From Pomacea canaliculata (Eukaryota > Mollusca > Gastropoda > Architaenioglossa > Ampullariidae): DNA of 64,000 nucleotides. Positions within the stretch are counted from its first letter, which is position 1, and each line of letters opens with the position of its first letter. The position numbers were made by a program, and so were the translations under genes. The stretch is from assembly GCF_003073045.1 (NCBI RefSeq), contig NC_037590.1, forward strand, positions 9,009,042 through 9,073,041. The letters are read 5' to 3'. This document shows positions 42,009 through 47,233 of this stretch, in pieces. The notes under the pieces were generated by a model. It had not been told where the DNA came from. It worked only from the letters and a program-made list of their open reading frames with translations, and made no database searches.

Positions 42009-45000
42009 ATGGAGGACACTCGGACGTCGCTTTATCATTTGAAGACAGCTGCAGACGACAAGGTCGGGACGAACGAATTGGAGGGGTGGATAGAACAGCT
42101 GATGAAGTGCCAGAAGCTGTCAGAAGCGCAGATCAAGATGCTGTGTGAAAAGGTAAGCTTCAAGTCTTTCTTCCCAAATTGTCTCTTTGTTCTCTCTCTC
42201 TCTTCCTATCATCGTTGAGAGAGGAGTAATCAAAAGTGCCTGGAATGCGCTGAACATTAATTTCTGTTTTAGTTTATAAATGGTGTTGGTAGCGTAACCG
42301 CCCTTGTTTGTTTACATGTGATCATTTTCACAACTGTTATAGGATACAATACCATCTCGCTAGATGTTCGTTGGCGGAAAACAAGATTACATAGTTTAAT
42401 GTTTAGTCATTATTTATTTTTAATATAAAAAAGAGTTTTATAGACTAGATATCTAATCGTCGTTTTTGCAAACAGTGCGATTACATGCGTGTCAAATTAT
42501 GCTTCAAGTTGCGTGACACGGAAGCAACAACATTGCAGAGATCAGGGATGAAAGGTGGGGTTGCAAGTAAGGTGAGGGCGTAGGGCAACCAAAGAACATC
42601 GATTGATCATAACTGCAGCTGAAGGGGAGGGAGGGATCATATCTGCAACAACACATGTTTGCGTTGCACGTGCACCTCACAGCGGTGTTACGTGCTCAGA
42701 TGCCCGGATTTTAAATGCTATGATGTGTGAACACATGATAGTGAGCACTGATTAGGTTGCCGCTTGTCCTGGGGACGTGGGTGAGTCCCCTCGGCACGCC
42801 TGTCAGCTGGCTGCATGTCATTCGTGGCATGAGCGGCTTTCCCTCATTCCTGGAGGGTGTCAAATGTACTATATATTTGCTGAGCATAAAGTTCCAGCTG
42901 TCGCCTGTCTTCTTGTAATAGCGGGCGTAGAAAACTCTAGACGATTAAATGAAAATTTTGGACAGAAAGCGCTGTTTATAATTTTTAAAACGTGCCAAAA
43001 CACATCCAGGCACACACAGGCAAACAGACAGATAGACAGACAAACAGGCACGCAAGCAAAATATAAATAAAGTAACAAACACTAAACCCCAACGTAAGAG
43101 CACAAATATAAGACGCAAGACATGTGAAACAAGAAAGAAATTTAATTGTGAGTTGTTGCCTCCCATCATATCAGTGATCTAAGAAAGGACAAGAAGAGGC
43201 ATGAGGACATGCAGACAGTCCATACGCACTGTGAAAAGATATATGCATAAAATGTGTACACACATGTATGTAATGTATATGAACAATTATTGATGTGCGC
43301 ACACACAAGTAAACGAGGCAAATGCGTGATATGTTTGTAGACACACTCTATAGATATAGAGAGAGATGATGTATATGGATTGTGCTGTAGAGGTGGTGGT
43401 GTATATAACCTGACTGTCATCTACAGGCCAAAGATGTTCTCATCAAGGAATCCAACGTGAGACAGGTTTGCTGCCCCGTGACGGTGTGTGGCGACATCCA
43501 CGGCCAGATGTACGACCTGCTGGAGCTGTTTCGCATCGGAGGCAAACCCCCGGACACTAATTACCTCTTTATGGGCGACTACGTTGACAGGGGCTACTAC
43601 TCTGTGGAAGTGATTTCCCTTCTTCTTGCACTTAAAGTAAGTGTGGGAAACATATCAAACTCATGTTACTGTAGGCACTGGATCGCATGTGCGCACACAC
43701 GCAAGTAATACATCATCATCTTCATCATCACCACCATCACCATCATCATCGTGTTCTTCTACAGCGTTGTTCTATATTTTAAAAAATCAACTCGCGATGG
43801 CGCTTCACCTTTTAATTGCTAGATGTTCCTGTAAACTTTTATGTTTATAAACGTTGTGTATAGCTGATGTGATCCACGAGTTGAGTAAGCTTCTCCTTAA
43901 AATTTGACTTCCGGCATATATTTTACATTGTTGTTTTTGTTTTTGTTTTTTTGTTTTTTTCATTTTGAAACATGCTTTCTGGCAGGTGATGACTGCATCG
44001 AGTAGCGTTCAATGTTCGTGTTCGAGAGGAACAGTGCCAAATGAAGCCTCAAATAAATAAAATAAAGTACAAAAACCTACATCCCGTTTCACAACTCAGA
44101 AAAGCATCGACATCATAATAAAAATAAAAATTTTAAATATAAACGGAATCAAACTCACATACAAAAGCAAAAGCAACATCAACAAAAACAAAACTAACAA
44201 GATGGCTACTAGGCCACAATCACCAGTAGACCTATGCTGACAATTGGGAAGTGGATCTTAAGATGAAGCTCCACAAATGTAGACAAGCAATTGTCCGTGT
44301 CACTGATAATGAAACAGATGTGGAGTTGACTCTTGATCTTATCAACGAGTGGAATGTTTCTTTACCACTGCGTCTGCATCATCATCATCATCCGATAACT
44401 ATTCACTATGTCGAGCGCTTACAAACGGTCTTTTCAAGGCAACATTTTTTTGTAACCTTATTTTGTAATCTTTACGTTGTCAGGTGCGTTACAGAGACCG
44501 GGTAACGATACTTCGAGGTAACCACGAGACTAGGATGACATCACAAGTGTACGGATTCTACGACGAGGTTCTTTGCAAGTATGGCAGCGCCAATGTGTGG
44601 AAGCTCTTCACAGAAGTCTTCGACTATCTGCCTCTGACGGCGCTCGTAGAAGGGCAGGTGAGTTCAAGCCACAAGAATTTACCTTCGCTGCCTTCTCTTT
44701 CTTTTCCCCTTCCTCCCACGCCAGGAGCAAGAAAATGACTAGAATCCCAAAACAGTAACACTAGGTAACCCGATTATACACTTTCAATTATATAATTTCA
44801 CAAATGTTTTTTGTCATCAAGCAAATAATTATCATTGTAGCACGTGAAAAATCCCTTTGACTGCAAACTGCTAAAACAAAAAGCAAGTTTCATCAAACCA
44901 GTAAGAATGAACATTACAACTTGTTAAAACTACACAGACCAAGCATATCAACTGGCACTGGCAGTGCAAAAAATTAAGTTCTCTTCTTGTCACAGCTCAA

Positions 45001-47233
45001 AGGACTTTAATTGTCAGTAGTATTTTCTACAAAAACCAGAACTGATACAGATGGCAGACAATTAAGATTCACACATTTGGAAAAAATTCTGAAAATCGTG
45101 CATAGTATAATAATGAGATTAAGTTTGTTTTCAGATATTTTTAATTGCATTTCCTAGTTTAAGATCAGCCACTCATAAAACATGATTGTTCAACATACAT
45201 GTGATCTACGTGCGTGTGTATGTGTACGTGTTCACTGTTTTCCCTATTTCTACAGATCTTTTGCTTGCATGGAGGGTTGTCGCCTTCAATAGATACCCTT
45301 GACCATATAAGAGCCCTGGACAGAATACAAGAAGCACCGTATGAGGTAAGGAGAGTACGTGCGTGTGTTTGTCAATGCATGCATGAGTAACAGTTCAGCA
45401 AAGATCAAATTCTCTTACACAAAGTAATAAAAAAATATTAAACTGTTAAAAAAGGATTAACCGTTGAGTTTTTTTTTTTTTCTTTTTCAGTCCTAAACTG
45501 TTTCTCAAGTGATGTCTTTAGCTATTATCAGGTTCTGTACAGATCAGTGGCTTCGGCAGGTTATGAAGACTATGTTAATAATCTAAATATATATATATAG
45601 TTTAAACATATAAAGTCGCGATCTACAGGAATGTTTTAGAAAATTCAAGAGCGGTGTATGAAAAATGTACACTAAATATTTTATTTTTCTAAATGCTAAC
45701 AACACGGTATAATTTGTTTTTAACACAGGGACCAATCAACGACCTCTTGTGGTCAGACCCGGATGATCGTATGGGGTGGGGACGATCCCCTCGAGGGCCG
45801 GGGTACTGTGTTCGGACAGGACATCTCCGAGTCTTTCAACAACACCAACGGGCTATCGCTGGTTGCCAGGGCACACCAGGCTGTTAATGAGGTCAGAGAA
45901 TTTGTCAGTTTTGTGCAAATATGTGTGTGTGTGAAGCAGGGGTGCGCGTTTATGCAAGAGTCAGGGGTGGACGCGACGGACAACTTCTTAAACCAGAGCT
46001 GGGTTCCACTAATGTTCTTACCTCATTTTTAATTTAAAAAAAAATGCTTGTAAGGTCAATCTCAACAACACATCCACAGCAAGCAAGCGCGCACACACAC
46101 TCACTATACACAGAGAGCGCGAGAGAGGGGTTGGAAGAGATGCCCACACATATGCAAAAAAAAAAAATAATAATAATAAAAACCAACAACACACTCTTAC
46201 CAAAGACTTTGCTCTTACTAAACTTCGTTGCCAAGAAAGCTGTGATCACTACTTACAAGACACACAAATAACACAAAAACAATCACAAAACAGTTTTAGA
46301 ACGTAAACATTCCTGATGCTACATAATTAAGATGAGCGACAGATTTTATAATTTAAACAAAAAAAAAAGGATCCAAAGAAATGATAATTAACCGTTTATT
46401 TAGTTGTCAGTTAATTTGTCAAGCAGTAATGATCAAACAGTATTATCATATTTTTAAACATCATGGCGTTAAAGCTTTTACAACAATCTAATTTTTTTTT
46501 TCCCTGATGAAGGGTTATCAATGGTGGCACAACCAGAACGTTGTCACCACCTTCAGTGCACCAAACTACATGTACCGCCTCGGAAATCTGGCCGCCATTA
46601 TGCAAATTAGCGAGGACATGACCTACAAATTGTAAGCATCATTCTGTCTGTAAGAGACAGAGAGATACCTACCTGAATATGATTGCTTTATATTATTACT
46701 GGTGTAAAAAAATATAAAGGTGTTATGTGTTATGAATAATGTACATGGGATGTAGTGGAGGACTGCAGACGCATGGATGCATAAAACAAAAGCTATTTTT
46801 ACCGAAGGAATTATTTTAGGGTTATAGTGTTTAAATAATTTAAGGGTGAGGTTAAGATTGCAGTTAGGGTATCCACTGGGCGATGCAGACGACGCTTTCA
46901 CCACTCCATTTGTGTGTGTAATAGCTGGCGATTTTTAGTATTTTTTAACTTACAATATATGGATGCTATGTAAACTTGTGCTCTTTGATGTGTTTCGACA
47001 GCACAGAAAAACATTTTCTACTCATTATTTGAAATACGTTGCAATATATGTATATACTCTGAATAATATCATTACAGTTTGATCTGTATTTTTATTGTGT
47101 TCAGGATTTTGTTGCAATTATATACGTGTGACTTTACTATGCATGCAGTGTCCAGTTCGATGCAGCACCGAGGAAAGACAACGAAGGCAAGCCTGAACGA
47201 TCCTTGCCGGATCACATGAACATCTACTTCTGA
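42009..47233 (+). CDS. Divergent PP2A catalytic subunit paralogue (one frame break in exon 5)
   Basis: Exons 42009-42152, 43427-43636, 44484-44657, 45256-45345, 45729-45891, 46513-46631 and 47149-47233 match the neighbouring PP2A gene intron for intron. GDIHG, GDYVDRG, GNHE, LHGG and RAH are kept, so the fold and metals should be intact. The N-terminus is 14 residues longer. Substitutions cluster in the toxin pocket (PP2A numbering Q122M, I123T, H191Y, L243A, C266M, C269L), while R89, Y127, W200, R214, Y265 and R268 are kept. The tail ends NIYF instead of DYFL, so the carboxymethylated leucine is gone. Exon 5 has 163 nt where 162 are expected: near 45807 the frame moves by one base. Read literally this gives about 258 aa and loses His241; otherwise the product is about 327 aa. 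It could be a recent pseudogene, a polymorphic allele or an assembly error. Confidence 0.88.
43708..43752 (+). repeat. (CAT/CAC)n microsatellite in intron 2 of the PP2A-like gene
   Basis: Interrupted CATCATCAT and CACCACCAT units follow exon 2 of the PP2A-like gene. Simple sequence, no coding role. Confidence 0.8.

Follow-up and report, generated by a model that had tools for sequence, protein, structure and literature searches.

A PP2A catalytic-subunit paralogue with an altered toxin pocket and C-terminal tail in the snail Pomacea canaliculata

PP2A is among the most conserved of eukaryotic enzymes, and in a 64,000-nucleotide stretch of the Pomacea canaliculata genome (contig NC_037590.1, positions 9,009,042 to 9,073,041 of the forward strand; hereafter the window) we find, beside an intact gene for its catalytic subunit (gene A), a second and unusual PP2A-like gene (gene B) that is a real paralogue with an altered toxin pocket. 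In PP2A itself, the residues that contact microcystin-LR (MC-LR) are, after Xing et al., Q122, I123, H191, W200, L243, Y265, C266, R268 and C269 (PMC2821003; PMC10974068), a list to which R89 has since been added (PMC10974068). LCMT-1, which methylates PP2A, and PME-1, which demethylates it, make 10 and 7 interactions, respectively, at residues of its toxin site and of the adjoining loop, and Kerk et al., as excerpted, argue that the toxins exploit residues that are conserved because such modulators bind there (PMC10214084). The same excerpt tabulates ten sites that set toxin sensitivity across the family, reading R I Y W R L Y C R C in PP2A (0.1 nM okadaic acid), R M Y W R A Y V - L in the archaeal PP1-arch2 of Methanosarcina (half-maximal inhibition by okadaic acid at 500 nM) and R L F W R A Y L V Y in PP2B, which requires above 1 uM (PMC10214084). 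Experimentally, the excerpted account of CRISPR alleles of LET-92, the PP2A of Caenorhabditis elegans, reports that L252A and C278G kept enzyme activity after exposure, abolished MC-LR binding and protected behaviour (PMC10974068).

Gene B resembles the PP2A catalytic subunit (PPP2CA/PPP2CB; here gene A) in its seven-exon structure, its ten catalytic residues and its 72% identity over 306 aligned positions, and is unlike it in having six of ten MC-LR contacts changed, no Leu309, 14 additional residues at the N-terminus and an exon 5 whose frame is broken as assembled (Table 1). All residue comparisons here read B across that break, which gives a protein of 327 residues. A first-pass annotation, made from the letters alone, had proposed a PP2A paralogue beside the 309-residue PP2A, and this is borne out; its codon-by-codon alignment of the two genes was sound as to the substitutions but missed the +1 frameshift in exon 5, the loss of Leu309 and the N-terminal extension. 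The introns of B are all GT-AG and lie at the same six positions as those of A, so B was presumably copied as an intron-containing gene and not by retroposition. At the protein level, 85 of the 306 aligned residues differ between the two (28%); A and human PP2A differ at 15 of 277 (positions 9-285). Of 286 codon pairs, 81 are the same in both genes, 133 carry synonymous differences only and 72 encode different residues, with a pairwise maximum-likelihood omega (the ratio of nonsynonymous to synonymous rates) of 0.028. Synonymous divergence (dS) is beyond saturation, with fitted values of 6.1 for the whole gene and 9.2 after the frame break and no finite value before it, so the duplication that gave rise to B cannot be dated. 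Third-position GC is strikingly different in the two neighbours, at 0.44 in A and 0.64 in B.

Table 1. Features of the two PP2A-type genes, in window coordinates
Feature	Position	Strand	Description
Gene A, intact canonical PP2A catalytic subunit	29851..36191	+	Seven exons, 309 aa, C-terminus TPDYFL
Gene B, PP2A-like catalytic subunit adjoining gene A	42009..47233	+	Seven exons
B exon 1	42009..42152	+	Holds the start codon; N-terminus 14 aa longer than that of A
B exon 2	43427..43636	+	Metal/catalytic motifs GDIHG and GDYVDRG (D57, H59, D85, D88, R89)
B exon 3	44484..44657	+	RGNHE motif (N117, H118), then TRMTS replacing SRQIT (S120T, Q122M, I123T, T124S)
B exon 4	45256..45345	+	HGGLSP motif (H167); carries V189A, H191Y
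B exon 5	45729..45891	+	163 nt against 162 in A; W200, R214, H241 kept; L243A; frame broken within
+1 frameshift site in B exon 5	45804..45810	+	Codon 218 region, adjoining a run of four G
B exon 6	46513..46631	+	beta12-beta13 loop; C266M, C269L; Y265 and R268 kept
B exon 7	47149..47233	+	C-terminal tail ending NIYF; Leu309 of TPDYFL absent

Functionally, the contrast within B is between what is kept and what is changed. The ten residues checked as the metal and catalytic set, which we take to be D57, H59, D85, D88, R89, N117, H118, H167, R214 and H241, are all kept, as the first-pass annotation had said of the corresponding motifs, with H241 lying beyond the break. The six pocket substitutions that it named, Q122M, I123T, H191Y, L243A, C266M and C269L, are likewise all present, and exon 4 does differ from that of A at only 2 of its 30 residues, H191Y and V189A. 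Counted over the MC-LR contacts, four of ten are kept (R89, W200, Y265 and R268) and six are changed. With 28% of B altered overall, such changes need a background against which to be judged, for which we used the 138 sites that are identical in human PP2A, A, PP4 and PP6, the last two placed by hand. On these sites, B is changed at 6 of 10 contacts versus 12 of 128 others (Fisher one-sided p = 0.00033), and the result is similar when PP4 and PP6 are placed automatically (6/10 versus 12/134, p = 0.00026); against all 277 aligned sites (9-285) the figures are 6/10 versus 64/267 (p = 0.019). Substituting the ten-site list of Kerk et al. (PMC10214084) gives 4/10 versus 14/128 (p = 0.026), or p = 0.23 against all sites. 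There is thus an excess of changes in B on the MC-LR contact list, which is weak on the Kerk list. The other 12 changed invariant sites are E37D, Q46R, F62M, T96V, I111V, S120T, T124S, C133V, Y145L, D160E, C196N and A216P, among which S120 and T124 flank Q122-I123. Taken together, the sites invariant in PP2A, PP4 and PP6 have changed less often than other sites (18/138 versus 31/100, p = 0.001).

The C-terminal tail differs as well. Leu309, which is carboxymethylated in PP2A, is absent from B, whose protein ends NIYF, whereas A ends DYFL and the PP4 (DYFL) and PP6 (YFL) of the same genome retain the final YFL, as A does. A search of the + strand from 46601 to 52000 for an alternative last exon of B ending YFL returned five frames that end FL-stop, one of these five being YFL (from 51306), and none resembles a PP2A tail by eye. 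From a regulatory perspective, LCMT-1 and PME-1 share the toxin pocket and B has lost Leu309, so an escape from methylation would account for the changes in both pocket and tail no less well than selection by toxins. The first-pass annotation had held that the clustering of the substitutions looks selective and had tied it to toxin exposure; this is not supported, since LCMT-1 and PME-1 make use of that pocket too (PMC10214084) and B is without the Leu309 that they target. We posit instead an enzyme in which the metal centre would be intact while the rim of the active-site pocket and the C-terminal tail have both been remodelled. With the methylated leucine gone and several residues of the shared pocket changed, B would no longer take part in the LCMT-1/PME-1 carboxymethylation cycle and would then pair with regulatory subunits otherwise than PP2A does; a low affinity for microcystin and okadaic acid would be a by-product of that escape, because the toxins use the same pocket as the two modulators. 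Tentatively, and without calling it probable, we take as the best explanation that B goes back to an old duplication of the gene for the PP2A catalytic subunit, and that it was kept as a protein under purifying selection with its metal centre intact, escaped methylation control and underwent remodelling of pocket and tail. As the reason for the pocket change, methylation escape is the model that we prefer, and it is, like the binding behaviour of B, a prediction from sequence.

Phylogenetically, B falls in a clade with A and human PP2A (ultrafast bootstrap 95, approximate likelihood-ratio support 93.8) in a tree of six sequences, which may be subject to long-branch attraction and in which PP4, PP6 and PP1 are partial. 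Of the topologies tested, the two with B joined to PP4 or PP6 were rejected (approximately unbiased (AU) test, p of 0.0001 and below), and four with B as the sister of A, of human PP2A or of the two combined were not (AU p from 0.08 to 0.91). Individual residues are similarly divided, with three shared by B and A against human PP2A (98, 109 and 186) and four shared by B and human PP2A against A (24, 107, 108 and 237). Among solved structures, the best match of B is human PP2A; a scan against NCBIfam returned three matches each for A and B, all to bacterial families and far below the cut-off. Branch lengths in the tree are 0.28 for B, 0.05 for A and 0.01 for human PP2A. The long branch of B, like its 85 changed residues of 306, would suit an ordinary sub- or neofunctionalised duplicate, restricted to the germ line for example, in which fast change has run over the whole protein and the pocket shares in a drift common to substrate-facing surfaces, unconnected with either toxins or methylation. 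Such a duplicate would not, however, be expected to have its pocket changed more than comparable invariant sites, as is seen on the MC-LR contact list, nor to have lost exactly the methylated residue, which is a specific change, and we regard this account as rather unlikely. Elsewhere in the genome, PP4 and PP6 carry all ten MC-LR contacts as in PP2A, and three PP1-like genes carry the PP1-type loop SAPNYCGEFDN; of these last (L040, L041 and L042), two lie on contig C4 and one on C1, the window's own contig.

The frame break in exon 5 bears on whether B is still a working gene. One frame runs up to PRGPGY (45806) and the next is taken up from VFGQDISE onward; a continuous reading meets stops at the end of the exon, and L243A, C266M, C269L and the metal ligand H241 all lie beyond the break. 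Past that point, omega between A and B is 0.026 (76 codons), the splice sites of B are canonical throughout, and no frame disruption was found in B besides this indel and the length differences at both ends of the protein. With the frame kept on both sides of the break and omega low, the lesion should be recent, allelic or an assembly error. The frameshift would accordingly be a loss-of-function allele of recent date or else a sequencing error that survived correction, and is very unlikely to be an old lesion; this haplotype may or may not yield a full-length B protein. Of the marks of a pseudogene, B shows a disrupted frame, through its one +1 frameshift, and neither a loss of constraint nor further lesions. 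An old decayed pseudogene is rejected on omega, on the conserved frame after the break and on the finding of no second disruption.

A recent pseudogene is a different matter, namely a paralogue that was functional until its frame was lost in the species or in the sequenced individual. The 163-nucleotide exon 5 and the stops at its end in the continuous frame are what such a loss would leave, and the assembly also speaks for it, since Pilon was used to correct the PacBio consensus against Illumina reads (of which 652x were produced) and the genome is 1-2% heterozygous (PMC6129957, as excerpted). So too does the lower likeness of B to A after the break, where 42 of 67 residues are equal to A as compared with 164 of 209 before it (two-sided p = 0.015), a drop that PP6 hardly shows (120/187 to 30/50, p = 0.62). 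PP4, though, drops likewise at the same point (151/208 to 39/67, p = 0.033), so that the lower identity is not proof of decay, a rejection that is itself incomplete given PP6. Against a recent loss stand also the canonical splice sites, the single disruption and the conserved frame beyond the break with its low omega, and single-base indels can presumably persist in a Pilon-corrected PacBio consensus of a very heterozygous genome. A search of the assembly with B, which gave at least 42 exon-level matches (E up to 0.01; 50 of 50 candidates scored), found no second copy of B or retained alternative haplotype; among the matches listed, the best outside the window was a PP4 exon, with 74% identity over one exon. 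Taken together, we consider a recent pseudogene unlikely.

What B would do in the presence of toxin can be predicted from comparison with better described phosphatases. Change of Cys269 is reported to confer okadaic acid resistance in cultured hamster cells, a point that did not show in the paper titles brought up by our search for it. Calcineurin (PP2B) has a regulatory extension, and the 327-residue B is without one. By residue sites (PP2B lies outside our tree), B, which reads R T Y W R A Y M R L at the ten Kerk sites, is like PP2B in having Ala at site 6 (243) and, at site 8 (266), an aliphatic residue where PP2A has Cys; it is unlike PP2B in that the Arg of site 9 and the Tyr of site 3 are retained (PMC10214084, Table 2). 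With PP1-arch2 the likeness is at sites 6, 8 and 10, which read A/M/L in B and A/V/L in that enzyme, although PP1-arch2 is a distant archaeal protein with a deletion at site 9. An experimental parallel is LET-92, where, by the +9 offset that we infer from its contact list, L252A corresponds to PP2A L243 and C278G to C269; the former is thus the same substitution as L243A of B, and the latter lies at the same site as C269L. The worm alleles are engineered single changes in the animal's own PP2A, whereas B is an additional copy that arose in nature, differs at 85 residues and has Leu, not Gly, at 269. A reduced affinity of B for microcystin and okadaic acid is plausible and a fair prediction by this analogy. 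The toxin-tolerant phosphatase proposed by the first-pass annotation accordingly stands as far as lower affinity is concerned, given L243A and the C269 site as in the LET-92 alleles, but the toxin-driven adaptation that it implied is unsupported.

Several points weigh against methylation escape as the origin of these changes, with toxin tolerance in its train. In the excerpted text of Kerk et al. (PMC10214084), no modulator interaction is given at site 2 (I123), and Q122 and H191 fall outside the ten sites, so that of the six changes in B only L243A, C266M and C269L can be tied to modulators. In LET-92, I132V (PP2A I123) showed less activity once exposed to MC-LR, and of the six contact-site edits that were attempted, the remaining three led to developmental problems or embryo lethality (PMC10974068), from which it follows that pocket changes can cost function. 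The rules of Kerk et al., applied to B, mark just the Met of site 8 as clearly unfavourable to toxin, and not the R of site 9 or the L of site 10, and the PP2B-type pattern of unfavourable residues at sites 8, 9 and 10 is not found in B; with site 8 alone clearly unfavourable, a shift to moderate sensitivity or insensitivity is to be expected, without certainty. Finally, the frame is broken in the single B sequence available, and the Illumina correction of the assembly speaks against a simple error there.

Some of the same observations would fit a grazing snail selected for a PP2A activity that microcystin and okadaic acid do not block, with the pocket residues themselves as the target of selection. 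Six of ten MC-LR contacts have changed in B against 12 of 128 comparable sites, Q122M, I123T and H191Y have no tie to the modulators covered by the excerpt of Kerk et al., L243A is a tested MC-LR-resistant allele in C. elegans (PMC10974068), and at sites 6, 8 and 10 B (A, M, L) is nearer to PP1-arch2 (A, V, L; 500 nM) than to PP2A (L, C, C; 0.1 nM). P. canaliculata is, moreover, commonly found in waters with algal blooms (PMC12626645, as excerpted). The loss of Leu309, however, lies outside the toxin contact lists, and at the Kerk sites pocket changes are in weak excess (p = 0.026 or 0.23). With the pocket unaltered in A, PP4 and PP6, and with residues of PP1 type in the PP1 genes, the other targets in the cell should stay inhibited. 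In mussels, as far as the excerpted study goes, okadaic acid brings about no response in PP1 and PP2A transcripts, and the mechanism proposed for tolerance is uptake or transport (PMC4655091). Adaptation driven by toxins is, in our judgement, improbable. Our literature search (titles and abstract openings of open-licence papers) brought up no mollusc PP2A paralogue, which is no proof of absence. Methylation escape stays our preferred, if tentative, reading of B. That B is in addition a natural methylation-independent and toxin-tolerant PP2A catalytic subunit, long kept in the snail lineage and doing part of the work of PP2A under toxin block, is a long shot that we would offer only as speculation.

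Beyond the two phosphatase genes, a Pfam scan of eight other open frames in the window gave matches for three, all below the cut-off. The open frames at 24116-28101 (-) resemble the exons of a WD40 protein, perhaps one such as RACK1; Pfam gave a WD40 match below cut-off for 24116-24436 (E 3.6e-5) and none for 27845-28060. Between these WD40-like frames lies a 257-residue open frame (25828-26598, -) with no Pfam match, which we take to resemble the end of a reverse transcriptase of long interspersed nuclear element (LINE) type. Two frames of about 100 residues, at 52315-52605 (-) and 59156-59467 (-), are alike by eye, each with a hydrophobic stretch, a basic stretch and a proline-tyrosine-rich tail (PPAY, PPSY), and are perhaps a pair of small membrane proteins; the first has no Pfam match and the second a below-cut-off match to LST1.

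For the biology of PP2A, the proposal that its toxin-binding residues are fixed by modulators such as LCMT-1 and PME-1 would find a natural experiment in B, which has lost the methylated leucine and several pocket residues while keeping the catalytic centre. Gene B makes it testable whether the pocket is conserved on account of methylation control, and whether a pocket freed from that control may give toxin tolerance at little catalytic cost. In the snail itself, a grazer, B would be a candidate case of tolerance to cyanobacterial toxins that is seated in their target.

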